A DNA stretch of 64,000 nucleotides from Bryoerythrophyllum caledonicum (taxonomy: Eukaryota; Streptophyta; Bryopsida; Pottiales; Pottiaceae): assembly GCA_963971425.1 (NCBI GenBank), contig OZ020516.1, forward strand, positions 15,860,593 to 15,924,592, given 5' to 3'. Both the position numbers and the translations under genes were made by a program. The notes beneath the pieces were generated by a model, which saw only the letters and a list, made by a program, of their open reading frames with translations, was not told the origin of the DNA and searched no databases. Position 1 is the first letter of the stretch; each line of letters begins with the position of its first letter. Of the stretch, positions 1,085 through 46,233 are shown in pieces.

Positions 1085-1197
1085 ACACTACATTCACAAG
1101 AGTCTCCCATAGAATTCTATCATTATTAACATGAGTTCCTTGTTCTCTAGAAGCTTGTCAGCTTGAAAATCGTTTTAGAAATCCTACTTGTATTATG

Positions 1198-1312
1198 GCC
1201 ATATTTGTTAAATTGAGACATTTCACAAAGTTTAAGAATTCCATCCCTACTACTACCGAGTTCAAAGTCACTTATTTGAGATTCTAAAATGTCTCAATTT
1301 AATGAATATGGC
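1198..1312. repeat. Short foldback (hairpin) element
   Basis: The arms at about 1198-1223 (GCCATATTTGTTAAATTGAG and on) and 1287-1312 are near-perfect reverse complements separated by about 60 bp. It is non-coding and MITE-like. Confidence 0.6.
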
Positions 1313-1527
1313 GTTTATTTGCAAATTTGACTTGAAAATAATTGATAAGCTCGAATTGAATCCAAGTGACAAACAACAAACTAGTGTCACATTGACGTAG
1401 TATGTGGAAAGTTTCAAGTTCCAAGATACAGAGAAGACAGTTTTTTATCGCTTCGTGCACACACACTGAAATTTTCAACTTGGACCTACAAATGTCTAAC
1501 GTGAGGTAAAAGACAAAATTTAAACTA

Positions 1528-1746
1528 CAACTAAAGTTGACATATAGTGTTTAGCACAGTAAATGACTTGTAAATGCTATAAGTTTTTACTCTTGATGAA
1601 TATTTTTACCAAATATGTTTACAATGATTCTCCTCTTTTAGATAGTATGAATTGTTTTGCTCTTGATAAAAATCCACATCGAAAGTAAAAAATTATAGCA
1701 TTTACAAGTCATTTACTATGCTTAACACTAAATATCAACTTTAGTG
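1528..1746. repeat. Foldback MITE, CACTAAA-type ends, TA duplication
   Basis: This 219-bp palindromic element has arms of about 85 bp. The left arm begins CAACTAAAGTTGACAT and the right arm ends ATCAACTTTAGTG. A TA dinucleotide stands directly outside both ends (1526-1527 and 1747-1748), as expected of a Tc1/mariner-type target duplication. The arms share motifs such as TTTACAAGTCATTTACTATG with their complement. Relatives lie at 2689-2913 and 5448-5997, with a relic near 10130-10310. Confidence 0.65.
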
Positions 1747-1756
1747 TAGCTAATGA

Positions 1757-2680
1757 TGCACTTCTATAAATCAGATTTTCTTACTGCTAGGATATATGAC
1801 TTAGTAATAATTATAGTGCTCCATCGATCGCAGGATGAATATTTTCGGAGATAAGGACTTCCGTTGAAGCATGTTACATGCTATGTGAGTAAGATAATCT
1901 GATATTTGTAGACACTGCCCATGTATCTTGTGGTGTCTTATTTGGTTGAATTTGATTATTTTCAACTTGAAGAGAGAGTTCAGCTTGTGCCGAATCGGTT
2001 ATTGGACACATCATTCATAGGTTTAGCTAGACTGTAGGAGTAGTCAAGAAGTTGATCAGCACCAGAACTAATTTGATGTCCATCTTCAGCTAAAAAGGTG
2101 CATTTCGGAGATCGATCCAGGTATATTGTTGTACTCATTTCCACAGTTTACTTATTAAAAGCTTGATCTTATTGTTGGATTGATTCGATTTCAGCTTCTA
2201 AGGCATGAGATGCAATGTTTTGGAGGTGTTGTTACGCCCTTCAGTTTAGTTACTGGTATTAGAATCGCCTGAAGAAAACCACGCTCTTTAGAAACAACGT
2301 CAGGAAGGGAAGCCACGACGTTTCTAGTGTGGTTTAAACCAGATTTCTTGTATTCATGACAACGTTGCTAACGTAGTTTTTTTTTAACTAGTGAGTGGTT
2401 TTATATTTTGGAGATTGGAGGTATAAGCTGCATATTAGTTGCAGTTCGATCTAGGTAGCTAGGTATTCGTGTCCAGCACAATCACTTGTCTGTTCAGGAG
2501 GCGTCGATCCATTCAGGGGCTGAATTGAGAACTTAATTTGCTGTTGGATCGTTCTACCGACTATTCATTCCTTGCCCATCTTTCCGGCGTGTTCGTCGTC
2601 GGTCAAGAGTTTAGTCGGTGTCAGAGTAGTGCGTGAAAAAGGTAGAGATCGATTAAGTTTCTGAACAGGTTGAAAACTGT
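1757..2680. other. Intergenic, no recognisable feature
   Basis: No coding frame, repeat or RNA gene is recognised here. It is AT-rich with scattered stops in all frames. Confidence 0.5.
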
Positions 2681-2688
2681 TGTCACTA

Positions 2689-2913
2689 CACTGAATTTTA
2701 TGTTTAATGTTACTGGTACTTTATGATTTGAAAGCACTATAACTTTTTACTTTCGATGAAGATTTTTAATGAGAGTACAACTATCTATATCACTCAAAGA
2801 CAGAGAGGGTTATCATTGTCAACATGGGTGATAAAAATATTCATCGAGAGTAAAAACTTATAGCATTTATAAATTATATAGTGTGCCTACACTAAACATC
2901 AAATTTAGAGCAG
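2689..2913. repeat. Foldback MITE, second copy of the CACTRAA/TA family
   Basis: This 225-bp element begins CACTGAATTTTATGTTTA and ends CATCAAATTTAGAGCAG. TA sits outside each end (2687-2688 and 2914-2915). The inner arms pair around TTTTTACTTTCGATGAAG and its complement. It lies just upstream of the laccase relic. Confidence 0.6.
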
Positions 2914-4321
2914 TACAAAGTCTGGGGCTGTTTAGATACTACCACTGCTCTGAAGGTTTACGCAAATCTTCAATGTCTTGTAGTGGTTGTAATTGAACTC
3001 AGTAAAGATGGCGTCAGTGAAGCTGCTTCTCCCTCTCATCACAGTGATACTGGCCAGCTTGTTGGCATAGCAGACGGATAATGAATACAATGTGAGGGTT
3101 GGAGACATTGAAGCGTTACAAAAACTTGTGCATAATATAGTAGTGTCACATTTAGGGTGTTAAAAACAACCCCATGTATACTAGTGCAAGTAAATCTACA
3201 AGTCTCGAACATCCATATTCCTATGCAGTTGAGAATCTTTCCAAAATCCAGGGCTCAAATCAAAGTTTATAGAATTTTTGGATATGTTGCTTTTTGGCAA
3301 ATTATACTCGCACACGTGTACTTTTTGGCTGTATATGTAATTTAGGAACTAAAACTTAATGTACACTGGGAGGAAGAAAAGGCAACGTATGTATGCACTT
3401 CTAGCATAGAGTCAATTGGAAAGTGGCTTGGAGTCTGATATTAAGGCAATGATGGTGTTTCATTCTCCTAGTCTTGTAAGGTTACACAATACTAAAGGCA
3501 GTGTCAACCTCTACACCAACTTTGACGGTCCTTGAATAGTATAGTTAACCATGCAACTCACAGACAAACTCCCGGTTCTCGCCAGGTAATGTCAATCCTC
3601 TTCGAGAGTGTAGGAATTAGGCAGCACAAATGTAGAGTTTAGATTTTGGAGTTCAATAAATATGTGATAAATTGCACTATTCAAGGACCATCAAAGCTAT
3701 TGACAGCCTCATCAATATTGTGGAATCTTACCAAACAAGGAAAAAGAAGCACCATTAGTACCTAAATTCTAATCAGATTTGTAGCCACTTTGTGGATATC
3801 TAAGTACGGTATTATTCAATGCAAATCTGCGATGGAGTTGACATGTTCGATTTTTGGTTTGTTGTTGGGCATGGAATAAAGCAGTTTCAAACAAACTATT
3901 TGGACAGACCGGCGTACTCAAGACAGTGCCCCATGGAAAGGGGAGGCAAATACATACACGAGTTCACGGAGGAGAACCAAAGTGGGACGTTTTGGTACCA
4001 CGCACACATCCTCTGGTTGTGCGTCACAGTTCACCCTCGGAAAAAGATCTCTGCTAGTTACGTGTCGTTGAACAAGAAATACCCATCATCATTGGTAAGC
4101 AAAAAAAATTCACTCACATGTGTATTCAAGAACTTCCCCAGAAAGAGAAAAGAACTTGTTCTTTAATGTGGTATTGACATCCAATTTTTTTGGAAATATT
4201 GCTCTTGTACTGAAGTCTATGTAAGCTAGGATATTTGATGAGATGAATATTGAATTATATATTTTTAAACTGCAAGGGTTAATTTCTTGTGCAATTTACC
4301 ATGACTTCTAAGGTAGCTCTC

Positions 4322-4511
4322 AATAAAATCTCTGATTCTTGCTGTTCTTTTTTAGGATACCTGGAATAATGATGTTTTTTAACCTTTGAATGACGTTAGA
4401 GGTGCCCAGACATACAAATAAAATCTCTGATTCTTGCTGTTCTTTTTAAGGATACCTGGAATAATGATGTTTTTTAACCTTTGAATGACGTTAGAGGTGC
4501 CCAGACATACA
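4322..4511 (+). repeat. 95-bp tandem duplication inside the laccase relic
   Basis: Two adjacent copies (4322-4416 and 4417-4511) are nearly identical. Each carries the intron end and the exon start reading DTWNNDVF. The duplication repeats a splice acceptor and part of an exon, so it is itself disruptive and looks recent. Confidence 0.8.
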
Positions 4512-5447
4512 AAGTGCAGAAGAGGAAAACGTACCTACTTCACATCATAAATGCCACATCCTCGTGACAATGTGCAAAAATCCAAGTCAGACTCGCACAC
4601 CTCATGTCATTTTATTTTTTGTTGAATCTTTCTCAACTCTAGGCCTTCGTGATGTTCTGCAATAACCATTCACCAAGTTGATTAGGAATTGATCGTCCAT
4701 CACACAAATTGTTGTTAATAGTGAAGGAGCGTATTTAGTGTAGGTGATACTAAAATTTTCCTCCAAATCACAAGTACAAATTTTGGTCACAAATCATTCT
4801 CTGATGTCAAAGAAACAATTTTTTTTGGACATGTTATCATGAATGCCATTTAAAAACAACTTGTTTCGGCACAGAAGGAGTTGTTTGTATAAGTTATTCA
4901 AGACAAGAGTGGTTGTAAAAGACAAATTTTAGGACCTTAGAACTTAGTAGAAATTTGTGGTCTTCAATAAATTTGAGACTTTAAACAAAATGAAGCGTAT
5001 CTAGTAATAATTGCAGGTAAATATTTGGTGTCATGGTGGGACCTGTCCCTAATGTGGGTATTCCACCTCTCGTACATTGGCACTGTTTGAGTACAAGGGA
5101 GCTTCCTCGTCCGCGTCTCGCATCACTCCCGAGTTCCCAAACAATGTCACCCTCACAACCTTGAACCAGTACAACAAAAAGCTGAAGGCGCACGGGGAGT
5201 CAGTCATGGCACTTCCCAAAAAAGCCAGCAAAGACTTGATTTACACAATTGGCATAGGATGGGTGGACTGCAAACCCCCAGAGCCATGTGTGGATAAAAT
5301 CTCGGGCATGGTACAAATCAGCACTATTGAAGAACCTGTTGGCACATCCATTCTTGAAGCCTGCGTGGTGCAAATGGAGTTTACCAGGGTGGCTTTCCAG
5401 ACAAGCCGCCCTCAATGCAGCAAGTGAACCTCACCAAATTTACACTA

Positions 5448-5997
5448 CACTAAAATTTATGTTTAGTGTAGTGGTACAAATAGTGTACTTACCCTAGTAC
5501 ACTATTTGTAAAGAAGTTGACAATTGGTGTTTGCTACCAATGTCATTAATGTAGCCTTGACTCAAACCCCAATCAATCCCCCAATCATTCCAGCCCATGC
5601 TTCTCTTCATTTGCAACTTTCAAATGGTCATAACTCATTCAAAACTTGTCCAAATTGGGCAAATGAGGTGTTTTTTAGCATCTAAATTTTCTGTAGATGC
5701 CAAAAAACACCTCATATGTCCAATTTGGGTTTATAATGAATGAGTTGTGGCCAATTGAAAGCTGCTGATAAGATACTCTAACAACCCTCGACTACTAGAC
5801 CTTTTTTTATACTTCTACTATTGATACACTTAATGTGCACAAGTGAAAAAAATTATGTTGAAACCTTTACTAAAATTGACAAATAGTGTAGTAGTTGGCA
5901 TTTAGTGTAGGGTTTTGAAACTACACTAAATGCCTCGTTCACAATTGGTGTATGGGTTCGCATTTAGTGTATACTTCACTAAACATAAATTTTAGTG
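5448..5997. mobile_element. 550-bp foldback element inserted in the laccase relic
   Basis: The ends are CACTAAAATTTATGTTTAGTG and its reverse complement, flanked by TA on both sides (5446-5447 and 5998-5999). A second inverted pair lies within it, at about 5648-5735 (CCAAATTGGGCAAATGAGGTG against its complement around GCATCTA/TAGATGC). There is no coding capacity. The shared ends tie it to the elements at 1528 and 2689, although the interior is different. Confidence 0.7.
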
Positions 5998-6433
5998 TAC
6001 CGGAACGGAACGCGGGAACTTGGTTGAGGATGTTGAACCTTGGCAACCATGTGCGACTTGTGTTCCAAAACGTCTTCGGCGCGGGCATACTTGACCACCC
6101 AATGCACTTGCATGGCCAGGAGTTTTACGTCATGGCAGGTATGGCATCTACAACCCGGCCAAGCACCCAAGACCATTCAACCTTGTCCACCCACCGGCGT
6201 ACCCTAGGCTTTGGTGTTCCCAATGGCTGCTGGCTTGCCATCCAGTTTCATGCAAACAATCCTAGTATGTGGTTCATGCATTGTCATTTTGAGTGGCGTA
6301 TGTTATGGGGCATGCAATGGTGTTCATCACAAAGAATGGTCAGCGTAATGGGGAGGAGTTAGCAGCGCCACTTCACCCTCTTCCCAAGTGCACTGATTAA
6401 AAATCCCAAAACATGTGTGTTCAAGCACGCACT

Positions 6434-6450
6434 CTAAACCCTAAACCCTA
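6434..6450. promoter_or_regulatory. Telo-box-like repeat (TAAACCC)n
   Basis: Two and a half tandem AAACCCT units lie just 3' of the laccase relic. Short telo-boxes are common in plant regulatory regions; this one is too short to be a telomere trace. Confidence 0.35.
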
Positions 6451-6578
6451 GGCTTTGGGGTTCCCATCGAGTTGGGTGCGTAGAAGTTTGACATGCTTTT
6501 TCTCTCACTCTTTGTTTCCGGAAATTTGAGCCGTTTCTGTTACATGTCTCATTTCTTTGGCCGTTCCAATTGATAAGC

Positions 6579-8791
6579 TTAACCCCTAAAGGACCAAACG
6601 TCCCCCCGGGGTCATTTTGGATTTTGGGCATGTACCTACAATTCGAAAAAAATCCTTTATAATTGAATATTCTTTTCAAGATAGGATCTGATAAGAGCTT
6701 CGTGGAGATATTTTTATTTATTTTTTTGGATTTGTGGTTTGAAAGTTAGTACCGCTTGAAGCCAAAATGGGGACTCCCGGGAACCTCCGAAACTTTTGGC
6801 AAAAGTTTCTATTGACATTGAAATTTTTCACACATATAAAGAATATTTCCTTCTTTAGAAATTTTCCAAAAAAAATCTTGTCTTTAGTGTAAAAAGGCAT
6901 TTTATTCCAAGTCAAACATTTTCACACACTGTCGGGCAACGGGGGAAAAAATTTCATCTTTTCTACATAAAACCTAGAGATCTTCATATTTTTCACTTTT
7001 TATTTTTTCAACAACAATATGTGGTGAAAACCTTCTTATTGACCGTTTGGATTATCATTTGAATACATACGTAGTTCACAAAAATATAAAACGTGAAATG
7101 GCAATTTTTGAACCTCCACTCCTTGCACACTTGTTTTGAATATGCTACACCCCTTTTTTACCTCTAAAAATTGGTGTGTTGGGAAATAACATCATGATTA
7201 AGACAATGGTAAAAGATTTAGATCTTGTACAATGCAAAAATTTGATACAAAATGAAGTCAAAGTCAGCTGATCTACTCAACGCAGGGATGAAAATGAACC
7301 ATTGTTTTGACTTTAAACACTAAAATCTATCAATGCATGTGGTGGATTGCAACAAAAATTTGATGGCATGTTTATATGGAAGTCTATTTTAAGATCTTAC
7401 GGTTGAAAATCCAAAATTCACTTTAAAATGTGATTTTCATGTCTCTTTTTGACAGTGGCAGTTTTGGACTGGTTTTAGAGCGAAATAGGTAGTGGTCGTT
7501 GCCAACAAGAGCTGTAACTGGAGACAAGGCTGACTCAATCTTGTGCATCCATTTCAACCCGCATGTGCACTAATTTGACATGGCACTGATATTCAATGCA
7601 TGCAATGTCCATGACCTCTAACACACACAAGAAAAGTTTATACCATACAAATCACCATGGGAAGAAACTTGTTTCACGTGCATAGTTTAGTTTGTCTTTG
7701 TCCCACCTTCAATTCTTATCAATCAAAACACACACAAGAAAAGTTTATACCATACAAATCACCATGGGAAGAAACTTGTTTCACGTGCATAATTTAGTTT
7801 GTCTTTGTCCCACCTTCAATTCTTATCAATCAAAAAGTTAACCCCTAGGGTACCAAGATAGTTTTACACCAAAAACACTTCAAAATTAATGGGTTCTAGT
7901 GCAATGAATAAAGAAGGTAACAAAAAATTCGATTTTTAGTTCTGACCGTAGGATCTCAATAAAGGCTTATTAAGTTATACATGTACAAAAATTTCATAAA
8001 CTTTGACCGCACAGATTGAAAGATTATAGTGTTTGAAGTCAAGCAAATGGTTCATTTTCTTCCCTGCGTTTAGTGGATCAGCAGACTTTGACTTCAGTTG
8101 GTGTCAAAAAATTTCACTACACAAGGTCTAAATCTATTACCATCTTGTTAAGCATGATGTTAGCTCCTTACACACCAATTTTTAGAGGTAGAGACATGGT
8201 GTAGCATATTCAAAACAAGTGTGCAAGGAGTGGAGGCTCAAAATTTGTTAATTCACACTTTAGTTTATTTTGAACTTAATATGTTTTTGATTGATAATCC
8301 GAATGGTTAATATGAAGGTTTACATTACATATTGATGTGGAAAAAATAAAAAGTGAAAAATATGAAGATCTCTAGGTTTTATGTGGAAAAGAAGAAGTTT
8401 TTTTGGTACCTTGCCCGACAATGAGTGACAATGTGTGAAAATGTTTGACTTGGGTTGGTATGCTATTTTTCACTAAAGACAAGAACTTTTTTTTGACAAC
8501 ATGAAGGGAAATAATATTACTTGCGAGTACTGAAAATCTCACTTTCAATAGAGTGTCCTATCAAAAGTTTTTGGAGGTGCCCGAGGTGCCCGCCCTCCCC
8601 ATTTAAAATTAAAAACCCTATAACTTTTTCATCAAATATCCAATTTAGGAAAAAAAAAATTTCCCACTGAGCTCTTGGTAATGTCTTTCTATAGTAAAAA
8701 TTTCAAAGTGGAATGTTGGAAATTGACACCATAGGAACCTGACCGATTTTTCAAAAAGCCCTTTTCGGACACTTGGTCCTTTAGGGGTTAA
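6579..8791. mobile_element. Composite TTAA-flanked non-coding element
   Basis: The outer ends are TTAACCCCTAAAGGACC at 6579 and its exact complement at 8775-8791. An internal TTAACCCCTAGGG end at 7838 makes 7838-8791 a complete 954-bp unit. The left part (6579 to about 7480) is a second, inverted and eroded unit, giving a mirror-like composite. Landmarks shared with sister copies are AATATGCTACACCCC, AATCCGTGCGGTCAAAG-like sequence and CCTTGCCCGACAATG. There is no transposase. TTAA flanks plus ends beginning CCC are the hallmark of piggyBac-type insertion. Confidence 0.65.
7621..7834 (+). repeat. 107-bp tandem duplication
   Basis: Two head-to-tail copies (7621-7727 and 7728-7834) appear to differ at one base. 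They lie directly against the TTAA end at 7838, in the middle of the composite element, so the duplication is recent. Confidence 0.85.
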
Positions 8792-9357
8792 AGCACACAA
8801 ACAAATCAACTCATGTTACCATAAAAAGTTGAGTAAAAGTCAACACAAAATCCACACCAATAAATCAATTCATTACACTTGTGGCAACACTAACTATATT
8901 CCAACAAAACAACTCATTCCATCCCAAAAATGACACTAAATTTTATGAACCGACTTGCAAACTCTCAAAGTTAGTGAAGTGAAATCGTAATAGAGTTTTG
9001 AATGAAGACATTTAGTATCACCTTCACTAATTACGCTGACTTTGAGAGTCATAATCCTTCTAGGCAGAAGAATTATGGCAGAGATTACAACTATTCAGCG
9101 CTCAACTAAAAAACTGTAGGATTTCTCAAAAACTACACTGAATGTACAGATTATCGTCTCAGGTGTAATATACCCATTGATATTGCTTCTTATTTGTAAT
9201 CGGTTAGTTTTCGTAGGCGTTTCCCTGAAGGCTCTTGCTTTGGAGATTTGGCAACCTTATTTTTGGAAGCCTGCTTTGAAGTTGAATGATAGTCTGTAAG
9301 ATAGTCCATGATAGATCAAGCATGGTTTGGTGGATCCATTACAGCTATCCTTTTCAA

Positions 9358-9699
9358 GGTAAGCCTCCCTGAAGATTGGCAAGTTAAGGAATGTGCACTT
9401 ATGGAGAGGAGATTATTATAATATTACATTCTAGTGAAAGCCTATAGAATTACAGTTCTAACCCAGGTGATTTCATATTTTTTCGATGAAAACTGAATTA
9501 GTTATGAATTTTCAAACTGTGCAGCCATGTTTAGTGGGTGGCCAGCAGTCCATAACCAACGACCAAAAGTAAGGGTCTTGACTAATAGCAAGCCTCCTTT
9601 TGGAGCTGAGTTGGTGGTAATGGGATGGAAGAGGGTTGGATGTACTCCAATTTTATTGGCGTTGGCTATGGGTTTTTGTTGGTTATGGGGAGGCTTACC
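9358..9699. repeat. 342-bp MITE, GGTAAGCC ends
   Basis: Terminal inverted repeats are GGTAAGCCTCCC and GGGAGGCTTACC. The interior holds AATAGAATTACA-like and GGTAATGGGATGGAAG landmarks shared with copies at about 34196-34536 and 49503-50255. Small open frames across it are not genes. This copy preserves the empty target of the element nested in the 49.5-kb copy. Confidence 0.65.
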
Positions 9700-10129
9700 T
9701 TAAGTCTTACATGTTAAGGTTTATTAACATACATTTTTTGAGTTTCCCAACATATATTTGCTTATTGTTGTATGACGTGGTGGATTTGGGAGGATATCTC
9801 GTTACAGTGTTTGGGGAGGACTATGGATATGGAACAAAAACCATTCCGGTATCTGTTCCAAAATGCTGGTTTTCATATCACAAGGTATTTCAATCATGTT
9901 CAGGGATCGCTTTTGTTGTGTTGAAGGGGAACATTGTCACTATCTAGTCACTCGTTACGTAAGTGATGGAATCAAGCATGGTAGAGTTATTTTGTACTCG
10001 GAGCCAAAATCATGAGTTTAGATCTCTTTTCTCATTCTTAGTAGTTGTGATCAGCCTAAAATAGTCTTATTAAGTATTGAAATATTAAGACTTCTCCCTC
10101 CTTCTCAGGGCGGCTGAAACTACATCTAA

Positions 10130-14198: not shown

Positions 14199-15236
14199 AG
14201 GTAGAACAAACCAACGACCCAACACCACTTCCTTCTACATCCTTCCAAGAATCCAGAGGAGAAATGTAACCTCTCTTTACATGACCAATGAGTTTATTAG
14301 TGATGCGATGACATGCTACATTTTTCTCCTTAAAATCTATGAAGGGTATCGATGGAAGCGGTAATTTTGTCGTCTCAATTTCCACACGCGATGACACGAT
14401 TCAAGCGAGTGAAGTAGAGTGGCAACAGAAAATGGGTGCAACTCGCACATGGAAGGTAGTAGGCGATCTCACTGTTCCGTCACGAACTCCTGGCTTGGTC
14501 ACAAGACTGTAGCATGTCTGGCTTGTGGTGATGCCCGCGACGTCATGCGTGGAAAAATATGCTTATTGGTAGGTTCGGGGCGCCGGCGGTGGCTGCCGGG
14601 GTTGAGGTTCAAGTGGTCGTCACGATCGTGTGGCAGCGGGTCTTGCTGCTGCGCATCTCGTTGTAACCTGCAGCTTCTTCTCCGCAAGGAACTCCATCTC
14701 GCGTATGTGATCTGTCGAGAGGGGATTTGGGTTAGTTGATGATGCTTTTTGTGGCCCGGGTGACGGATCTGTGTTTAGAGGAGGATACATTGTTGATTGG
14801 AAGTTGCTCGGGTTTGGTTGATACGTTTCTTGTGTTGCATTTTGAGTCCGCGTAAAGGATTCGAGTCTAGAGGTTGATGCACTGTTCGGAAGTTGCTCGG
14901 GTTTGGTTTCTGGTTCGGTTGCTGATGTCTTTTGTGGTCTCGCATTTTGAGTCCGGGTGAAGTATTTGCGTTCAAAGGGTGGTTAGTATTGCGTATTTGC
15001 GCGATTTTGTTGAGCCCGGAGCTCAGGTTTGGTGGCTCTGGCTAGGTTTTCAGGAATGTCAGGTCCATGTGGTTTGAAAGAGTCACGAGGAGGTTTAAGA
15101 ATGAAATGCTCAAAAACACCATTTTGATGTCTTGTGAAAGAGTCGAGAGGAGATTTGGTAATGAAATGCCATGTCCGTGTTTTATGAAAGTGCGGAGAGG
15201 AGGTTAAAGTTGGCGTTGATTGCTCTGCAGGTCGCC
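14199..15236. other. Upstream region of the LysM gene
   Basis: GC content rises from about 14.4 kb. No recognisable coding homology is seen; open frames on both strands here look incidental. The pairs TTTGTGGTCTCGCATTTTGAGTCC (14929 on) and GTTGCATTTTGAGTCC (14833 on) are loosely repeated. The promoter or 5' leader of the LysM gene probably lies here. No clear TATA box was identified. Confidence 0.4.
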
Positions 15237-16034
15237 ATGGCGAAGTCGGATCCCGCTCTACTGCTGCTGCTGCTCTCCGCGGTGGCGCTACAAACCCAGC
15301 CGATCCTTGCGCAGCAGCAATACAACAACGTGACCGGCTTCCTGTGCACAGGAGTGCAGCAGAAGTGCGAGGCGTCCGCGTACTACCGGACGCAGGGGGC
15401 GAATTCCACGCTGAACTCAACCGCGGCGCTCTTCAGCACCAGCGCCGCCGCCATCGCCAAAGCTAGCAACAGGACCGTCAATTCGAACGCCCTTCTCGCC
15501 GACAAGACGGGGCTCACCATCCCGCTCGACTGCGTCTGCGCAAACCGCACGTACCAGGCGCCGACGACCTACACAGTCCAACGCAACGACACCATGGCCA
15601 TCATCGCGAACCGCACCTTCGAGGGCCTGGTGAGCTACCAGGCCATCATGGCGGCCAACCCGACCATCATACCGGAGAACTTGCAGGTCGATTATCCCCT
15701 CATTATCCCGGTGCGGTGCGCCTGCCCCTCGCAGCAGCAGATGGAGGCCGGCACCGAGTCCCTGCTCAGCTACGCCGTCTTCCCCGGCGAAGACCTCACC
15801 ACCATCAGCATCACGTACGACGTCCCCGTCGCCGAGGTGCGGGCCGCGAACATGTTGCCCAACAACTCCATCGAAGCATTTAGCACCGTGCTCGTGCCAC
15901 TCAAGGGGGGCGGCAACACCAGCTCCACCACTCCCGGCTCGCCTCCGAACGCCGCCTCTGCAGGATCCCGCGCTGACGGCCTGCTCGTCGTCGCGGTCGC
16001 GGCCTTGCTTGCGGCGCAGTCTCTCCTCTTCTAG
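15237..16034 (+). CDS. LysM-domain GPI-anchored protein (LYM/LYP type)
   Basis: This single-exon gene encodes 265 residues. A signal peptide (about 1-25, Leu-rich, cleavage after PILA) is followed by a Cys-containing N-terminal domain (C37, C44), the CVC pair at 99-101, a first LysM at about 112-158 (YTVQRNDTMAIIANRTF), the CAC pair at 161-163, a second LysM at about 178-222 (YAVFPGEDLTTISITYDVP), a Ser/Gly-rich stretch and a hydrophobic tail at 248-265 with no cytoplasmic residues, as needed for a GPI anchor. The CxC spacing is the signature of plant LysM receptor proteins that bind chitin or peptidoglycan fragments at the cell surface with a partner kinase. Many N-glycosylation sites (NST, NRT) are present. 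The start at 15237 has a good ATG context (GCCATGGCG). An in-frame ATG at 15171 would add 22 residues before the signal peptide and is less likely. Confidence 0.9.
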   Translation: MAKSDPALLLLLLSAVALQTQPILAQQQYNNVTGFLCTGVQQKCEASAYYRTQGANSTLNSTAALFSTSAAAIAKASNRTVNSNALLADKTGLTIPLDCVCANRTYQAPTTYTVQRNDTMAIIANRTFEGLVSYQAIMAANPTIIPENLQVDYPLIIPVRCACPSQQQMEAGTESLLSYAVFPGEDLTTISITYDVPVAEVRAANMLPNNSIEAFSTVLVPLKGGGNTSSTTPGSPPNAASAGSRADGLLVVAVAALLAAQSLLF

Positions 16035-20580: not shown

Positions 20581-21690
20581 ACTTGAATGCAATCAATACT
20601 AGTGAATGAGAGCAAGATTTAAAAAAAAATAAAAAAATAATAGGGATCACAACACGTTTTCCACTTGGCAAAGAACGAAAGCTTTCATGCATTCATGACT
20701 TCAGGTGTAATCCATCATGACTTGGCTTACCGATACAACAACAATGCTAGCATTTGAGCACTGGGCGGTAAATAGTGTGCATGCGGCTAAATTTAGGCAA
20801 TAATATATTTTATTTTTACTAAAAATATATATTTTTGGTCCCATTTCTCGACTCCCACAACCTCTCATCTTGGATAATGGCCTCCTAAGTGGGCCTCGTA
20901 TGATCTCACAACCAAAAATCCGCCACATTGAAAAGCCGGCCACGCTAAAAACCCTGGCCAAGCACTTGAAAATTGGGTATTGTCCTTGTATTGTCATGCG
21001 TGTTGATTGTATGCAGCCCGTGGCTTGTGGGCAACCTAGGTAGCTTCTTAGGCACTTGCACCACGTCAGAAGAGGCCATGAAAACAAGTCGTCTTCTTAT
21101 ACAAGAGACATAATGATAACTCAAATGACATGCTTAGACGTGTTTAGTGCTTTAGTAAATGTTTGATTGTGGTAACTCCCTTGTAATCAACCAAAACTCA
21201 TAACCAACAGCTATAAATTTGGATGTATCCAATCCACTTCTATCCCATCACAACCCGTTCAACTCCTAGATGGAGGTTTGTTATTAGTGAAGATCCCTCA
21301 CTTATGGTTGGCACTTTTCGAGTACCTATTGGCAACGACTGACTAAACATGGCAACACACTTTGAAATTCATAACCGATTCACATTTCATTGGAAAAACA
21401 TGAAATCACTTGCGTTGAAATTGTAATTCAATTTGCTATTACTGACAATGTATTATTTGTTCTCTCCATATATTATGCACATTGCTTAACTTGTGGGTTA
21501 TTAGTGGAGGCTGGAGGACGGGTTTACCTTACCATGATCTCTATGTTCATTTCTAACATTCCTCTTTGGAATTTTTACTAATAGAACTAAAATCTGTGAT
21601 TCAGTCAACATGAATATGGTGTTCATTTCTAACATTCCTCTTTGGAATTTTTACTGTAGAAGGGCAATAGTAAAACCTTGGTTGGAGAAC
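20581..21690. other. Intergenic, little recognised
   Basis: No gene or RNA is recognised. A short direct repeat (TGTTCATTTCTAACATTCC) occurs at about 21543 and 21620. Confidence 0.4.
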
Positions 21691-21699
21691 AATGTTTCC

Positions 21700-22490
21700 A
21701 AAATCCAACATTTAATTAAAAGGTCATAGGGTTTTGAATTTCAAACAAGGAGAGCAGGCACCACGGGCACCTCCCAATTCCATTGCTAGAACACTTTATT
21801 GAATGTGAGACTTTCAATGCTAGCAAGTTATATTATATCCTTTCATGTTGTCAAAAAAAAGAATCTTGTCTGTAGTAAAAAATAGTATATTAACCCAAGT
21901 CAAACATTTTCACACAATGTCTTACATTGTCGGACAAGGTACCAAAAAATACTTCTTCTTTTCCACATAAAGCTTAGAGGTCTTTAAATTTTTTACTTTT
22001 TATTTTTTCCACACAAAAATGTGGTGTAAACCTTCTCCTTGACCATTCAAATTATCAATCTAAAACATATTAAGTTCACAATAAATTAAAATGTGAATTG
22101 GCGATTTTTGAACCTCCACTCTTTCAGCAACTGTTTTGAATATGCTACACCCCTCCTCTACCTCTAAAAATTGGTGAATAAGGAACTAACATCATGCCTA
22201 ATACAATGGTAATGGATTCAAACCCTGTGTAGTGCGAAAAATTGACACCACGTGAAATCAAAGTCTCCTAATCCACTCAATGCAGGGAAGAAAATGAACC
22301 ATTGCTATGACTTCAAACACTATTATATTTCAATCCGTGCGGTCAAAGTTTGTGAAATTTTGTGAGTATGTTACTTAATAAGTATCTTTTGAGATCCTAT
22401 GCTCAAAACTAGAAATCAATTTTTTTTGTTTCCTTCTTTATTCATTGCACTAGAATCCAACGCTTTTGAAGTGTTTTTGGTGTGAAACTG
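21700..22490. repeat. Partial TTAA-family element upstream of rpoA
   Basis: It carries family landmarks (GGGTTTTGAATTTCAAACAAGG, GGACAAGGTACC, TTTTGAATATGCTACACCCC, CAATCCGTGCGGTCAAAG) and runs to TTTTGGTGTGAAACTGTCA. The terminal GGGGTTAA is missing. It ends about 400 bp before the rpoA start codon and so bounds the promoter. Confidence 0.6.
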
Positions 22491-22894
22491 TCACGGTTGA
22501 TCAATTTCTGCCGAAACTAACCCGTGAATAGGAGCTCTCCTTCGGGGCAGGCCTCAGGGTTTTGGTCAGCTGGCAAAAAAAACCATTCCCTCGTTAAATC
22601 GGGTGAGCCCCATCCTCGGGCAAATCGGGCACGCGAGAAAAAACTCCTAGCGGATAGGGTGGTGATGCCGTATACCTAAACCCGTCATTTTGTTTAAATA
22701 TTCTACATTTCCTAAATAAGATCAACCCTATCTACGTAATTGGAATTGTGACGCTTTTAAACACAGTAACGGTTTAGGGTACCGGTTTCCCTTATCCTCT
22801 CGCGAACTCACTCTGGGTTTCGATTTTAGGACCGAGCACTCTCGAGAAGGCGAGCTTTTGCTTGTTTGAGGTTTTTGCTAGGGTTTAAGGAGCT

Positions 22895-24267
22895 ATGGCG
22901 ACCGTCATGAACGCACCGGCGATGGCCGCAGTGGCCGCGGGCGCGGCCGGGGTCGCGGGGGATTCCAAGTTCAGTCAGCGCAGAAATGCGTTCTTCGCCG
23001 GCGGTGCAGGATTCGGCGACCACGTGGGGAAGCTTTCGGTGAATTCGTCCCGGCGAGGTGTTTTGCGAGTGGTGGCTGAGGGTATGAATTCGACCATGGA
23101 GGGAGGCAAGGCCAACGCGGTTGTCTCCAATGCTGAGGTACCGGTCACGCTGTGTATGTTTCGAATTTCTTTGAGAGAGAAAAGGGAGCTTAAACCCTAA
23201 ACCCTGGAGTTGATGTTTAGGTTGACAGAATGGCGTCGGAGCAGAGTGAGAGCGATGTTGAGACTGGTAGAGAGGCAGTGCAGGCGGTGCTGCAGTGGCG
23301 GTGCGTGGAGGCGAATGTGGAGAGTGATCGCCTGCATTACGGCCGGTTCGCAGTGTCGCCCTTTCGCGTAGGCCAGGCGAACACGGTCGGGATTGCGATG
23401 CGGAGAGCGCTCTTAGGCGAGGTCGAGGGCGCGGCTGTGACTTGCGCTGCTTTTCAGAACGTGGCGCACGAGTATTCGGTCGTGGAGGGGGTTCAGGAAT
23501 CCGTGTTGGACATTCTGCTCAACTTTAAGGAGCTTGTGATCCGGAGCAACTCGCAGGAAACGCAGAAGGCGTTTATTTCCACAATTGGCCCTGGTGAAGT
23601 GACTGCAGGGGATATCATCTTGCCTCCGTCGCTCGAGGTTACTGATCCTTCTCAGCACATAGCTCTTCTGACCAAAGCGGTTCCGTTCGATGTTGAGTTG
23701 GAAGTGGAGAGGGATTGCGGGTACCGCGTTGCGGACCCGGCCAAGTCCACCGACGGACGGTTTTACTTAGACTCCGTGTTTATGCCGGTCCGGAATGCCA
23801 ATTACAGCGTGCATTCCTTCGAGAATGAGGACATTACGCAGGAAATCCTGTTTCTAGAGATCTGGACCAATGGCAGTATTTCCCCCGAGGAAGCACTCTA
23901 TGTGGCTGCGCGTAGTCTGATCGATTTGTTGCTCCCGTTTTTGCAAGCAGAGAAGCGAGAGATTGCCAACACTTCTGACAGTGACCATGGCTCCAGTACC
24001 ATGTCTTACTTTTCCTCCTTTTTGCCGGCGTCCGAGCAGATCACGAAAGAGGTCACTTATAAACACATTTTCATTGATCAGTTGAAACTCCCTGCTAGAG
24101 CGTACAATTGCCTGAAGCGGGCCAACATACACACAGTGGCGGATTTGTTGGACTTTACCCAGGACGATTTGATGAGAATCAAGAACTTCGGAAAGAAGTC
24201 CGTTGAAGAAGTATTAGAAGCTCTCCGTGTACAGTTCGATATCAACTTACCCAAGACTAGAGCCTAG
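22895..24267 (+). CDS. rpoA: Nuclear-encoded plastid RNA polymerase alpha subunit
   Basis: There are two exons (22895-23137 and 23221-24267) with an 83-bp GT-AG intron in phase 0; the product has 429 residues. Exon 1 (81 residues) is Ala-rich at its start, has many hydroxylated and basic residues ([12 protein letters not shown]) and looks like a plastid transit peptide. Exon 2 holds the whole bacterial-type body. The alpha N-terminal domain carries [20 protein letters not shown] and [19 protein letters not shown], which form the assembly interface. The alpha C-terminal domain carries [20 protein letters not shown] and [16 protein letters not shown], the helix-hairpin-helix that binds DNA. It should assemble with plastid-encoded beta, beta' and beta'' subunits. 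Loss of rpoA from the plastid with transfer to the nucleus is known in mosses. A telo-box (AAACCCTAAACCC) lies at the 3' end of the intron. No breaks are seen. Confidence 0.95.
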
Positions 24268-25492: not shown

Positions 25493-26424
25493 AGGTACCG
25501 TGACAATTTCACATCAAAAACACTTCAAAATTGTTGGATTCTAGTGCAATGAATAAAGAAGGAAAAAAAATTGATTTCTAGTTTAGACCGTAGGATCTCA
25601 AATACGACTTATTAAGTAACATAATTTCATAAATTTTGACCGCACGGATTGAAATATTATAGTGTTTGAAGTCAAAGCAATGGTTCATTTTCTTCCCTCC
25701 ATTGAGTGGATCAAAAGCCTTTGACTTTACTTGGTGTTAAATTTTTGCACTTCACAAGGTCTAAATCCATTACCATTGTGTTAAGCATGATGTTAGTTCC
25801 TTACACACCAAATTTTAGAGGTAGAGGAGGGGTGTAGCATATTCAAAACAATTGTGCAAGGAGTGGAGGTTCAAAAACTGCCGATTCACGTTTTAATTTT
25901 TTGTGAAATTAATGTGTTTTAGATTAATAATCTGAATGGTCAATGAGAAGATCTACACTACATATTTTTGTGAGAAAAAACAAAGTGTAAAAAATATGAA
26001 GATTTCTAAGTTTTATGTGGAAAAGAAGAAGTTTTTTTGGTACCTTGCCCGACAATGTAAGACATTGTGTGAAAATGTTTGACTTGGGTTAATATGCTAT
26101 TTTTTACTAAAGACAAAAACTTTTTCTAACAATATTAAGGAAAAAAATATTACTTGCTAGTATTGAAAATCTCACATTCAATAGAGTGTTCTAGGAAAAG
26201 TTTATGGAGGTGCCCAAAGTGCCCGCCCTTCCCATTTGAAATTCAAAACCCTATAACTTTTTAATTATATGTCGGATTTTTTAAAAAATTGTTCTCTTGT
26301 TGAGGTCTTAGTAATGTCCTTCTACAGTAAAAAATTCAAAGAGGAATGTTGGAAATTGACACCATAGGAATCTAACCGAACTTTCAAAAAGCCCATTATT
26401 GACACTTGGTCTTTTAGGGGTTAA
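25493..26424. mobile_element. 932-bp TTAA-flanked non-autonomous element
   Basis: This complete copy starts TTAACCCCTAAGGTACC and ends GGTCTTTTAGGGGTTAA. It is in the same orientation as 7838-8791 and closely similar over its full length, including GTTTTTTTGGTACCTTGCCC and GCCCGCCCTTCCCATTTG. No coding frame is present. Confidence 0.7.
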
Positions 26425-28136: not shown

Positions 28137-28560
28137 CTACAGTATCTGCGTCGAATACCGAGTTGTGGAAAGGCAAGAGACGCTTTCGTCTTCTCCGATA
28201 AGAGTGCCTCCCTTCAATGACTTTCTGCTTCCTGCAGCGAACATCGGAAAATCTTGCATGGTGAGAAAATCCTTCACCTTACGCTTCTTCAGTCGCAATC
28301 GCGAGTTGCTGAGTCGAAGAATGCCTGTATAATTTTGTCTCCTGAGCTCGCTCATTAGGATCAGAGCTTGAAGAAACCTTGGCAGCATTGATGCATGAGA
28401 CTGTCTTGGATGGGAGAATCTGCATTGGTGGGATGATTGGAGGCAGCGATGGAGGCTGATGAACGGTATGATATGTGAATCGGAAAGAGGAATAGGGTTT
28501 AGGGATACAGAACACGAGGGGCCTGAGTGTTGAGGTGATGGTGGGAGGTTGAGAGAGCAT
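28137..28560 (-). CDS. Possible small divergent gene, transit-peptide-like start
   Basis: The start codon is at 28560, and the first 61 codons (to 28378) have no acidic residue and are rich in S, T and P, as in organelle transit peptides (MLSQPPTITSTLRPLVFCIP). A GT donor follows AAG at 28377. Splicing to 28286 in phase 0 would add 49 residues (KRKVKDFLTMQDFPMFAAGS and on), for 110 in total. The acceptor is weak; a stronger-looking upstream one would give only about 70 residues. It would share a divergent promoter with the C2-domain gene, whose ATG is 52 bp away. The product is not recognised, and the frame could be chance. Confidence 0.25.
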
Positions 28561-28611
28561 GGTCACATGGTTGGTAGTTGTTTGAAGGCTGGAAGTGGTG
28601 TTCAGAGAGCC

Positions 28612-31600
28612 ATGTTCTTCAGAGGCCAAAAGGGTTCAGTTGAGTTCGACATCTTCGTGGAGGATCTCAAGCCGTGGACTTCATCGCGTGGCGATGGCGC
28701 CCTGGTGCTCACTTGGCAACGGGGCAGCAAGCGGTCCGGCAGCACGAAGGCCGTGACGCCGACGAATGGAAGAGTGGTCTTCAACGAGGGTTTCACGCTC
28801 TCGGTTTCACGCTCTCTGTTCGAGAGAAGCTCCGGGAAGATCCAGAGGAAGTGTGTGAGCTTCGCGTTGGTGGAGGACGAGAAGGTGAACCGCAGACAAC
28901 TCGCCTCTGGAGAGCTCGACCTGTCGCAGTTCGGGAACTTGACCGAGCCGTGCACCACCTCCATTCCGTTGTCTCTTGGAAACAATGGTGCTCAGCCCAC
29001 TTTGTCCTTCAGAATCTCGAGGCATGCTTCATCGTCAAGAACAGACAGTCCCCAGCGACCGAGCTACGTTGCGCCAGAAAGCGACGACGACTCTGGCGAC
29101 GTTGAAACCGACGAAATCGACTCATTTACTGACGATGACGAGTCCCCTAGTTCCTCCGACGATGACTCCACGAGGTTGATCAAGAAGAATTCAGCGTTGA
29201 CGGACAGAGATCTGTTATTCTCTTCTGCAGCTCCGATTCCACTCAAATCTCTTCCCTCCCCCGCGCCAAGTAGATCTGCTTCGCCTGCTTCAAGGACATC
29301 CGATGCAAAGGTATCAGTTGACCTAAATGTGTAGGAGACATTGAGTAAGCATTTGCTGCATTCTGACCTGGTGTGATGGATTCCAGGCGGCGGAGTCGAG
29401 ATTGCCAGAGGACGAGCAGCGGAAGAGGTTGCTGGGCATGCCGCTGTCAGCGCCGCCAGGGAAGGCGTTAGCCAAAGCAGTGAAGACGCTGGAAGCCGCT
29501 GCGGGGAAGACAGTGGAGGCGGCGAGGAACTCTGCGGAAGCACTGAGGAATTCTCCAGCGGGGAAAAGCCTGGAATCAGTGGCAAAATCAGTGGACGTCG
29601 CGGCCACCTCGCTTGCGAGAAACTCTGCGGTAGCAGTGCGGAATTCTCCAGCGGGGAAAGGGCTGGATTCAGTGGCGAAATCAGTGGACGTCGCGGCCAC
29701 CTCGCTTGGAAAATCTGTGGCGACCGCAGCAGCGCAGGCCTCCGCCGGACTTAGCCCAGCAGCAGCCGCCGCCGCTGCGTATGCAGCGAAGAAGACGTCA
29801 CCTCGTCCATCTTCAGAAGACTTCTCACCGCCAACTGATTCCGCGAGCTCTTCATCAGCGCGAGTGAGTAAGGGACCCATCGCAGACGACGTCGACGGAC
29901 CCAACATGAGCGTGCTGGCGGAGGCGCGCGCGAAGATGGCCATGGTGGAGAAACGGGCCATCGAGGAGCTGCGGTCCAAAGTCGCAGCGGCGGAAGCGCG
30001 GACGGTGGCGAGCGAGGAGAAAGGAAAGGAGATCGAGCGCGGCCTCAAAGAAATGATCATGAAGCAAGAAGATGAGCTGCGCGACACAGCCGCGATCGAG
30101 GTTGCGCTCTACTCCACAGTCGCCGAGCACACAAGCTCCTCCCACAAGCTGCACACCCCTGCGCGCCGCCTGGCGCGCCTCTACGTGCACGCCTTCCGCA
30201 ACTGGACTCCGGAGCGACGCGCCAGCTCCGCGCGCAACTCCATCCAGGGGCTCGTCGTGGTTGTCCGCGCGTGCGGGAATGACGTCCCAAGGTGCGGCTT
30301 CATCTCCGTCATCCCCTGCACCTTCATCTCCTGACATGGTTTACGCAACCTGAGATTGTTTTGCGCGTGCTGCAGGTTGACGTACTGGTGGTCGAACATC
30401 GTTGTGCTTAGAGAGTCCATCATGGAGGCGTGCAATGTGGGGCCTGCAAGTGACGTTGACGCTACCAGCGGCGAGGACACGTTTGCTGATCGCGCGAAGC
30501 GGTACCAGATGCGACGGCAACGCAGCACCAAGCAAGGAAGCACCAGTGAGATTCTCGGGTTCAAGGCCTTCAACAACGACTGGCAGGACTGCAACACGTA
30601 CGTGGTGGCGCTCCTGAAAGTGGAAACGTGGATCCATGGAAGGATACTCGAATGCGTCTGGTGGCAGGTGAACAATCACAGACTCATGATTTGCCAGTCT
30701 TGCAACATCATCATCATCATCATCTACTCCGACTGTTCTGTGCACATAGGCTATGGCTCCGCCAATGCAAGTTGGTGGCAGTGATCGGACGGCAAAAGCG
30801 AGCGCTCTGGGGGAGACGTTCGTGGATGTGCGGGACCAGCTGAGCAGATTGGCGGAGAAAGTGAAGGACGGGCTTGGCGAGCTGAACAAATTCGCGGGAG
30901 ACGTCAAGGAGTTCTTTACCAAGGAGCGACAAGATGGGAAGATGTCGCAGCTGGGAGACCCTCGCCAGGGATCGATCTCCATCGAGATCTGGAAGAATGC
31001 CTTCGGGGATGCTCTGAAACGATTGTGCCCTCTTCAGGGCCATGAGGCGGAGTGCGGCTGCTTGCCTGTCTTGAGCAGACAGGTTTGTAGGCTTCGGGAT
31101 GAATAGTTGCACAGTTCATTTGTGAAATTCTCGGCATTTTTCTGAAGGTAAAAAAAACAGAAACCGGTTTCTTGAGCATCGTATATGATAGTTTGTGAGA
31201 TTCTCGGCATTTTCTGAGGGTGAGAAGAACAGAAGTTCATAGGTTTTCTGGGCATTGAACCTGGCCAATCTCACTCTGCCTTTCGGGATGATTGGGTGCT
31301 ACTTGGATTCTTCAGGTAATTGCAGAGTGCGTAGATAGGCTGGACGTCGCCATGTTCAATGGAATCATGCGGAACCCGGAGGAGGATTCTCCGACTGATC
31401 CCCTGGCAGACCCTGTCACGGATCTCTCGGTTCTTCCAATTCCTGTGGGAGCCTTGACATTCGGAGCTGGATCTCAGCTAAAGAACGCGGTAAGGGCCAA
31501 CTGTGTAGATGAGAAGCTATAACAGACCATGTAATCATGTTTCTATTGCTGTTTATGGCTTCAGCATCTCAGGTTGTAACCATCATTTTCAGCAATCAGA

Positions 31601-37102: not shown

Positions 37103-40097
37103 CAGTCGGCTCTCTATAAATGTTACTCCTCGGGAGCGGGATTTTCAGTAACACTTATGCGTTTATAACACTTATGCGTTTATAACGTTTATAGAACTAG
37201 ATACCGACGATTAGTAACACTTACAAAAATAACACTTATGGAATACAATACCGATGGTTAGTAACATTTAAAGGAATAACACTTATGAAACTTGATAGTG
37301 ATGATTAATAACATTTATGGAAATATGACTTGTAAGACTTCAAAGAAAAATCCATAACATATAGAGAATATGAAAGTTGAAAATACGAAAAATATAAACC
37401 ATAATGCAACTAAATTCAACTCACCTAAACTCAACTAAACTCAATTAAACTCAACTAAACTCAACTAAACTAAGCTTTATCAAAGAAAGAATCCATAGTG
37501 GATTGATGGGTATCTTCAATACGGGCAATTGCCACATCTTGCAGAAGAGTTTGAACCAAGTTGATGCGTGATGAAACATCACGTGGTCTTTGCTGAAGGA
37601 ATTTCTTCACAATATGAAGTGCACCTTCAACAGTGTCAAATCCAACCACCTCGTCTACCACATCATTTATAACCTCATCTTCAACAATCTCCAAGTCTTC
37701 GGAAGGAAGCATGTCTAGGATATCCTCCTCAGTAGGTTCATAGGGATTATTTAAATCAAAGTCTACCTCATAGTTTATGAACTCATGAGCGCCCATAACA
37801 TCGCTATCATTTAGGTCTGAAGATAAAAGTGAAAGCCGATGAAGCAAACGTCCAATTTCATCAACCTCACTCTCAATCCTTGTTGCAAATCTCTCCCTCT
37901 CAAGTACATCTCTCTCCCTATCACTAAGAACTGAAAGTATGCCTGTATGCCTCCAACAATTCACGATTGTTGACGATGTCACACCTATATGCCATGCCTT
38001 CACAACCATAATTATAGCCTGATAGACATCTATTATAAATACCTCGTTTGCAGTTAGACAATCTATCTAGTACTGAATCATTAGTTTACGGTATTGCGCC
38101 TTAAAAGAAGCAATAATGCCCGCATCCATGGGTTGAAAACGGCTCGTAGTGTTAGGTGGCAAGAATTCTAACCGCGTCACCTCCAACCGTGATGCCACAT
38201 TGGGTATCTGATGACCTGAGAAATTATCAACGAGCAAGAGAACTTTCTCTTTCTGCGCTAATATCATCCTTCTATCAAAGTCCAACATAAAACGCTCAAA
38301 GATCTCCGTAGTCATCCAAGCTTTCTTGTTAGCAGCCCAACCGATACCTAAATTCTCAGGAACATGAACATGTCTTGAGGTGAAGGCACGCGGCTTCATG
38401 TAGTGATTGATGATAAGTGGAGGCAGACAAATTGTACCTGTCGCGTTTGCAATGAGTGCTACTGTGATACGCTCCTTATGTTTCTTCTTTCCCGACAATC
38501 TTGACGTAGCGAGAGTACGATTTGGCTCCATTCTGTAGAAGAGGCCTGTCTCGTCCATGTTGAACACGTCATCGCGATTGTACGAAGCCACGAGCGCCTT
38601 GATTTCTTCCATCTTCGCTAGAGCTTCTGCTGAATTGTCAGCAGAGGCATCTTCTCCATGTCGCGTGATGGGTCTTATATCAAATCTCTTCTTGAAACCG
38701 CTCACCCACCCAGACGAAAAATTGAGTACTTTCTCGCTTGACTCTCTTGGTGTCAAATCATAAAACCTCTTGGTTGCACCTATAATCAAGTCATCAGATA
38801 AAGTTGCACCTTGATCTATCATTGCGGTGATCTACTTGAAAGTGGCTAGCTCCACTATTGGACAATATACCTTCCTCAAGCGCTTCATCCCATCCAAGTG
38901 CACCCCACCTTCCTTAGGTATTGACTCCTTCTTCTTCAGTAGTCTACCTATGCTCATTGCTGAAACAGAAGTATGATATTTGGAATTAGCCCATTCCATC
39001 AAAGCCCTTTGAGTGGTTTTGTGCCCTGTTGACATTGAGTTTTCATAATGAGCAATAATATCCTGCTTCTCCTTGAAGGTGAATTCTCGACTCCTTGCCA
39101 TTGCCACCTTCAATTGCAACTACCATGTCAATCACACCCACAACAATAACAACCTTCCACAAATGATTAGTGACTTACAAAAGTAGGAGCGACCTACTGT
39201 ACCACTCAAATACCTACACTGATGTTAGGCACTTTGGGAACCATTCAATTATGCACACTTACAGATGTGACCACATATGTTCCCAAGTGGCACAGGCCAG
39301 ACGGTAACTAAATATGGTCTATTTTCCAGAGAATTGCAAGCTCATTCAAACCCAAGGTTTGAACATATTAAGTTACAGTAGTATGGCTTTAGAAAGAACA
39401 TAACATTGTGCAGTATAAAACTGACTTGATGTGACGGTGTTTCTACAAAGATGGCTCTTCTTGAGTGCTGTGCACCAAATTAGTGCCTTAATGGACAATT
39501 CATCCAAACCATTCCCCATGACTTTGGATTGACACTCTCTGACTTGACGTTTGACGAGCATGCACCCATCTGGAAGTTTAAAAAAAAAGAAAAAAAAAAA
39601 GAGTCACAGCCAACAATCAAACCTCAGCCTGACAGGCCATGCATCCATGATGAGGTCGACGGCATGCCTCTTGCATGTGGCAAACAACCACACCCAAAAA
39701 TTTTAAAGCAAATAAATAAATGAATAAAAATAAAAACTCACAATATGGCCTGCGATACCCTTCTCGAATATGGCATGCGATGTCCCACTAGATTCTGTTC
39801 GAAGAATACTGACAGATTCTTTTTTAAAAGGACAAATCTTCTCAAGTTCCACAAAAGATATGGTATATATTCATGTGAAGTAATTTAAAAATTTAGAAAC
39901 AAGTGCTATTATGATGTTTTTGCCAAATGTAACACTTATAGAATCATTTTAACAAAGGAGGGAGCGGAACATGTTGTAACACTTAACATATAACACTTAC
40001 TAGTGTTAATTTTGAGGTTTTTCTCGGGAGCGAGATTTTCAGTAACACTTATGCGATTCTAACACTTATAGAGGTAACATTTATAGAGAGCCGACTG
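37103..40097 (-). mobile_element. pogo/Tigger-like DNA transposon nested in the left repeat
   Basis: This 2995-bp element is flanked by TA (37101-37102 and 40098-40099). Perfect 24-bp inverted ends begin CAGTCGGCTCTCTATAAATG, and subterminal TAACACTTAT repeats occur at both ends. The unfilled site survives in the right terminal repeat at about 45373-45391. The minus strand encodes one long frame (39119-37470, about 549 codons) with an N-terminal HTH, a CENP-B-like HTH (WVSGFKKRFDIRP) and a DDE_1 catalytic core: MDETGLFYR, LLVDNFSGHQ and PNTTSRFQPMDAGI supply the three Asp. Two in-frame TAG codons (38834-38832 and 38069-38067) interrupt it; no frameshift is evident. The transposase would cut and paste at TA sites. 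This copy looks recently inserted but not self-sufficient. Confidence 0.88.
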
Positions 40098-45705: not shown

Positions 45706-46070
45706 CACGTTGAAAATATGGAGCAGACCATCCAAGTCATGATCAACAAGATGTTTGTGTACAGAAAACAAGTTTTAGTGGTTTTAGTTGGTGACATGTT
45801 GTCACAGCAGCGACAAGGTGGAGATCGTGGAGATTGTGGGGTAACATCACGCCGCCCAAAAAAGTTTTCTACCAGCTTGGCACTGTATAGGATTATGTAC
45901 AAGAACCTTGCCTATGTCGATACCTGTGTGGTATCTTAAAGCACATACCCTCGAACGATATACCCGACGGATTGCGGGTGTCAAGCTAGAATTTGTCAGT
46001 ATGTTGAGTCCATTTGCACGTCGACGATGGCAGTTTTTGTAAGAAACTCCCAACCCCTTTGCATTTTGAG

Positions 46071-46107: not shown

Positions 46108-46233
46108 AGCGCCGTCGCGTTGATCGCCTGTCTCACGTCCATTCCGCGCACACTAGTCCGCCATTTGGGTTTTGCTCGGTGCACCTTGGCGGGGCAGCAA
46201 GAGAATTGGTGTGGAGTTCGAGGAGGAGGAACG

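Follow-up and report, generated by a model that had tools for sequence, protein, structure and literature searches.

A nuclear rpoA gene in the moss Bryoerythrophyllum caledonicum with a targeting exon apparently copied from an Hsp70 gene

The moss Bryoerythrophyllum caledonicum very probably has a single gene for the alpha subunit of the plastid RNA polymerase, one that would have moved from the plastid to the nucleus, come to lie behind a duplicated 5′ piece of an Hsp70 gene, and now give a protein imported by way of an Hsp70-type transit peptide. The gene, rpoA, lies in a window of 64,000 nucleotides (the whole stretch of DNA that was analyzed) on contig C3, which measures 38.4 Mb in an assembly of 437 Mb and 894 contigs. 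The coordinates of the gene, its parts, and the other domain-bearing frames of the window are collected in Table 1.

Table 1. Features of the rpoA locus and other frames of the window (positions within the window)
Feature	Positions	Strand	Basis or remark
Promoter block similar to the C2 Hsp70 upstream region	22617..22665	+	77.6% over 49 columns, collinear
5′UTR block similar to the C2 Hsp70 5′UTR	22850..22885	+	Shuffles and blastn
rpoA gene, two exons	22895-24267	+	81 codons, 83-bp GT-AG intron, 348 codons plus stop
Exon 1, 81 codons	22895..23137	+	ATG at 22895; apparent source is the first exon of the C2 Hsp70 gene, DnaK type
Putative transit peptide, residues 1-61	22895..23077	+	End set by the mature Hsp70 start in the donor
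Putative remnant of the mature Hsp70 N terminus, GIDLGTTNS mostly deleted	23078..23137	+	Residues 62-81
Predicted phase-0 GT-AG intron, 83 bp	23138..23220	+	Reading frame and splice consensus
Exon 2, complete plastid-type RNA polymerase alpha plus stop	23221..24267	+	348 codons, 23221-24264, no interruption
Alpha N-terminal domain, dimerization and insert	23284..23949	+	PF01193 and PF01000
Alpha C-terminal domain	24043..24225	+	PF03118, 86.2 bits (cutoff 23.8)
Multicopper oxidase domain frame	3819-4166	+	
LysM domains, CERK1/LYK/NFP receptor type	15171-16034	+	
NT-C2 domain frame	28549-29334	+	
Transposase piece	38067-38822	-	DDE_1 and Tc5-type DNA-binding domain
SWIB/MDM2 domain frame	46027-46452	+	
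Transposase piece	57946-58710	+	DDE_3 and Tc3-type domain

If no intron is removed, the frame of exon 1 meets a stop at positions 23198 to 23200. Among the splice sites compared (GT within 23091 to 23215 and AG within 23181 to 23261), the predicted pair 23138/23220 is in frame and in our judgment has the best consensus, and we predict an intron of the spliceosomal type. Other in-frame pairs are present, among them 23152/23228, whose donor is poorer. As for GTATGT at 23154, the only acceptors that suit this donor in phase are 23188 and 23209, and a stop follows each of them immediately. The first-pass annotation had placed both exons and the 83-bp intron at the positions given in Table 1, and these are right, with the frames intact.

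Exon 2 has the dimerization, insert, and C-terminal domains of RpoA in one chain. In a profile search, RNA_pol_L, RNA_pol_A_bac, and RNA_pol_A_CTD all score above the Pfam cutoffs, and TIGR02027 (rpoA) reaches 283 bits against a cutoff of 227.8. Compared with solved structures, its best matches are four RNA polymerase alpha chains (E values of 1.5e-102 to 8.6e-97), which from their entry codes we take to be angiosperm plastid polymerases; the fifth best is 8gzg (E = 1.5e-71), presumably, again from its entry code, a cyanobacterial alpha subunit. The N-terminal domain is identical at 123 of 222 residues (55%) to 8w9z and at 91 of 222 (41%) to 8gzg, and the order reverses in the C-terminal domain, with 33 of 66 (50%) and 38 of 66 (58%), respectively; the pattern of conservation therefore depends on the comparison. 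An earlier suggestion that a diverged N-terminal half and a well-kept C-terminal domain might reflect relaxed assembly constraints finds no sign in these data, given that the ranking of the domains flips between the two comparison sequences; two such sequences make a small sample. The C-terminal domain retains RAYNCLK and NFGKKS, residues that we take to be part of the DNA-binding determinant of E. coli alpha, whereas the four best chains have RIYNCLK and lack GKKS. To judge from these sequences, the good preservation of the C-terminal domain appears to reflect an ancestral state, since lost from the four plastid chains.

A search of the whole genome with exon 1 (E values up to 10, the best candidates alone being scored) listed exon 1 itself and one other place, C2:25318817-25319092, at an E value of 0.0166. 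A DnaK-type Hsp70 gene with an N-terminal extension has its first exon here, running downwards from C2:25319092. The encoded protein ends in DDVIDADFTDSK, which we take to be an ending typical of the stromal Hsp70 chaperone; on this motif and its presequence, the protein appears to be a chloroplast-type chaperone, of the plastid. The Hsp70 query used was 195 residues long, and its final V was probably read from the opening codon of the intron, which would put the end of the exon at codon 194. Over 80 codons, exon 1 and the C2 Hsp70 gene share 53 of 80 residues and 171 of 240 nucleotides, including an identical run of 17 nucleotides at positions 23094 to 23110, and the protein score was reached by none of 1,000 composition-preserving shuffles. 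Crude Nei-Gojobori estimates are 1.2 for dS and 0.20 for dN, a rough sign of age drawn from few, GC-rich codons. The assembly holds a second DnaK-type Hsp70 gene, at C4:28753400-28755300. DNA scores to the exon 1 region are 87 over 585 nucleotides for the C2 gene and 19 over 330 nucleotides for the C4 gene (the lengths are unequal), and by this measure the C4 paralog is much less similar to exon 1.

The two parts of exon 1 both find counterparts in the C2 gene. Residues 1 to 61 comprise 2 acidic, 7 basic, 6 Ser/Thr, and 31 Ala/Gly/Val residues. Residues 62 to 81 match the start of mature Hsp70, with the first nucleotide-binding motif mostly missing, at a score of 39 that was reached by 1 of 1,000 shuffles. 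Because this latter stretch belongs to Hsp70, the copying would have run from Hsp70 to rpoA. We conclude from the sequence comparisons that the C2 Hsp70 gene, through its first exon, is the source of exon 1; the genome search for a presequence donor that the first-pass annotation had called for thereby has its answer, in a gene of the same genome whose protein is apparently plastid-located. The rest of Hsp70 was not seen in the window: in a blastn search with a 10-kb C2 piece (E values up to 1), the gene body matches positions 22850 to 23110 alone, and the other matches of this piece fall outside the Hsp70 gene body, mostly in dispersed repeats around the gene. A tblastn search with stop-to-stop frames of at least 40 residues, the exon 1 frame left out, gave two matching frames, both in repeat.

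The rpoA intron does not lie at an exon boundary of either Hsp70 gene, since the C2 exon stays open in frame for about 87 codons beyond the intron position and the first intron of the C4 paralog, a phase-0 intron after TTPS, comes 7 codons 3′ of it. Joining at a donor exon boundary, as in strict exon shuffling, was thus not found with the two Hsp70 genes compared. The intron had earlier been placed exactly at the transit-peptide junction, which does not hold: the putative end of the transit peptide is around residue 61, some 20 codons before the intron, which comes after residue 81. The companion proposal, that rpoA had joined a pre-existing presequence exon, stands as to the presequence, which pre-existed in Hsp70, but not as to a ready-made exon, as the C2 exon continues past the join. 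The C4 gene has introns after TTPS and AKRQ, both missing in the C2 gene; they were either lost in the C2 copy or gained in C4.

The simplest reading of these sequences is that a new splice donor arose from Hsp70 coding sequence. An unlikely, if still serious, alternative is that rpoA landed in an existing intron 1 of Hsp70 and that the splice donor later moved upstream, which would account for the C4 phase-0 intron only 7 codons away and for a GTATGT 16 bp within the rpoA intron. However, the rpoA intron has no significant similarity to C4 intron 1 (score equaled or exceeded in 53 of 300 shuffles), and the C2 gene, the better match, is without an intron there. Comparison of the rpoA intron with the C2 Hsp70 exon 3′ of NAE likewise gave no significant similarity (279 of 300 shuffles reach the score).

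Similarity to the C2 Hsp70 gene continues upstream of the rpoA ATG. The upstream tests used 300 dinucleotide shuffles and two scorings, of which the second leaves a small margin. The 5′UTR block scores 36 against a shuffle maximum of 32, and 21.5 against 20 in the second scoring (0 of 300 shuffles each); a blastn match of positions 22850 to 22969 to the C2 Hsp70 gene, which includes the start of exon 1, has an E value of 1.35e-8. The promoter block lies 230 to 278 bp 5′ of the rpoA ATG, in the same order as at Hsp70. Alone it is a weak blastn match (E = 0.013), and the stretch from 22500 to 22834 scores 41 against the Hsp70 upstream region (shuffle maximum, 31) and 26 in the second scoring (maximum, 24), again with 0 of 300 shuffles each. 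A control stretch of C2 compared with the rpoA upstream region stays at chance level (z scores of 0.6 and -0.5; 81 and 212 of 300 shuffles). The 14-bp core of the promoter block occurs 8 times genome-wide, against 6 for the reversed control, and the idea that it is a common motif was dropped. No heat-shock-element cores (GAAnnTTC or TTCnnGAA) were found in the 600 bp upstream of rpoA or of the C2 Hsp70 gene. From the collinear similarity, the promoter was likely copied along with the Hsp70 targeting stretch.

It is very improbable that exon 1 is instead an unrelated transit peptide that resembles Hsp70 merely through a shared Ala/Gly-rich composition. Exon 1 and the Hsp70 presequence are both rich in Ala, Gly, and Val, and the genome search gave an E value of only 0.0166; against this stand the composition-preserving shuffles, both for exon 1 and for the mature Hsp70 remnant alone, the 17-nucleotide identical run, and the similar 5′UTR and promoter DNA.

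The location of rpoA is that of a nuclear gene: a contig of 38.4 Mb, a nuclear composition (GC3 of 0.64 in exon 2 versus 0.11 in a plastid petD piece), and a predicted intron of the spliceosomal type. The alpha C-terminal domain family has one match in the whole assembly, and the exon 2 protein finds itself and one chance-level place (E = 0.97). The gene on C3 is the sole rpoA found in the 437-Mb assembly. The insert-domain family PF01000 also matches contig C6 twice, at 38 bits (above the cutoff) and 33.1 bits (below it), and we take these matches for Rpb3-type subunits of nuclear polymerases.

The assembly contains two plastid contigs, C894 and C821, with nine aligned pieces of more than 2 kb that are 76 to 84% identical. 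When 6 kb of each was queried against the rest of the assembly, 26 places outside the two contigs were matched by both queries, 21 of them closer to C894 and 5 to C821; six additional places were matched by the C894 query only and two by the C821 query only. Plastid-like fragments on C6, C1, C4, and C12 are 98, 96, 95, and 98% identical to C894 versus 89, 88, 86, and 92% to C821. Among the contrary places, one on C265 is 83% identical to C894 versus 87% to C821, and the other four (C267, C893, and two on C1) span 70 to 82 bp at 75 to 77% to either contig. From 21 of 26 places, our judgment is that C894 is the plastome of this plant; C821 seems to be the plastome of a second plant in the sample. 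The petD gene of C821 has codons resembling C-to-U editing sites (S for L and P for L).

A spacer of 187 bp separates petD from rps11 in C894, between the end of the petD stop (78487) and the beginning of the rps11 stop (78675); the corresponding spacer of C821 is 241 bp, between 89103 and 89345. We take this spacer to be the usual place of rpoA in plastid gene order. A tblastn search with the nuclear protein in the readable parts of C894, C821, and C590 gave chance matches only (best E = 0.20), and the rps11 control was recovered in both C894 (100%) and C821 (98%). The readable parts exclude stretches of N at 85001 to 95000 of C894 (10 kb) and at 1 to 10000 and 50001 to 52500 of C821. Outside the 10-kb N stretch, then, rpoA is missing from C894, the plastome judged to be that of the plant, which bears out the first-pass reading of a nuclear rpoA with the plastid copy lost. 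That the nuclear gene is instead a nonfunctional or redundant insertion while a plastid rpoA persists is hardly credible, for although 10 kb of C894 reads N, the 348-codon frame is intact with a nuclear codon composition, no rpoA lies at the canonical site or in the readable parts of three plastid-bearing contigs, and the assembly has no second full-length rpoA. Loss of the plastid copy is the reading we retain, and the petD-rps11 gap without rpoA fits the published moss pattern, in which Tetraphis and all arthrodontous mosses lack plastid rpoA and the other major moss lineages have it (PMC4035505).

Domains in the window were scanned in rpoA and in 20 of the 59 frames of at least 100 residues; the frames with named domains are given in the lower rows of Table 1. 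Inverted copies of a dispersed repeat, at 21615 to 22497 and 25497 to 26366, flank rpoA about 3 kb apart and are 79 to 93% complementary in seven pieces. The same repeat also flanks the C2 Hsp70 gene, and several further copies lie in the window. The repeat being one of many copies, the flanking pair was set aside as a carrier of rpoA and may, from its distribution, be there by chance. It is possible that a mobile element moved the Hsp70 5′ module.

In the history that we favor, a 5′ piece of a nuclear plastid-type Hsp70 gene would have been duplicated, and plastid rpoA DNA would have inserted behind the copy. The captured piece would have consisted of the promoter block, the 5′UTR, the transit peptide, and the first mature residues of the chaperone, and because rpoA DNA landed behind it, rpoA would have become both expressible and targetable. 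A short intron would have arisen where the Hsp70-derived and rpoA portions meet, its donor site lying in what had been Hsp70 coding sequence, and the first nucleotide-binding motif of Hsp70 would have been mostly deleted, leaving a short tail. After synthesis in the cytosol, the precursor would enter the plastid by means of its Hsp70-type transit peptide and be cleaved near residue 61, and the imported alpha subunit would assemble with the plastid-encoded beta and beta-prime subunits. We infer the splicing, import, cleavage, assembly, and order of events.

In mosses without plastid rpoA, the plastid polymerase depends on an alpha subunit encoded in the nucleus, and the Hsp70-derived 5′ piece suggests how nuclear rpoA had a working promoter from the start. 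Tentatively, and with the balance of our judgment somewhat against it, one capture of the entire plastid Hsp70 5′ control module, with promoter, leader, and transit peptide, may lie at the origin of nuclear rpoA in the mosses that lost the plastid gene and may have put the core of their plastid polymerase under chaperone-type control. If so, the still recognizable promoter block would be under selection.

Relocated moss rpoA and the capture of targeting signals from resident genes are already known; what is new here is an Hsp70 gene as the presequence donor of nuclear rpoA. Nuclear rpoA is reported for Physcomitrella and Sanionia (PMC5877570, PMC4834550), as is, for Physcomitrella, a plastid-targeted RpoA protein (via PMC5877570). 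Physcomitrella patens and Sanionia uncinata likewise combine loss of plastid rpoA with an N-terminal targeting extension on the nuclear gene (PMC5877570). In open-licence full texts, a scope outside which the 2003 Physcomitrella rpoA paper falls, no Hsp70 donor for a moss rpoA presequence was found, nor any account that names the source of the presequence in these two mosses; such an origin may be described in that paper or elsewhere.

Two further known systems come close. The nuclear rpl32 of Malpighiales carries the transit peptide of Cu-Zn superoxide dismutase (PMC8018952) and, like rpoA here, is a plastid gene in the nucleus whose signal was supplied by a resident gene that encodes a plastid protein and had been duplicated. 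Unlike in that case, the donor for rpoA is an Hsp70 gene, similarity in the upstream DNA is visible, and neither of the two Hsp70 genes compared has an exon boundary at the position of the rpoA intron. Presequences of heat shock proteins are known for mitochondrial sdh3 and rps10 (PMC2631504, PMC4045975); in Arabidopsis, sdh3 has the presequence of hsp70, and pieces of hsp22 occur in Rhazya and Gossypium (same sources). As in these cases, rpoA is a transferred organelle gene with a heat-shock-protein presequence or chaperone remains; the earlier cases are mitochondrial, belong to flowering plants, and concern a different gene.
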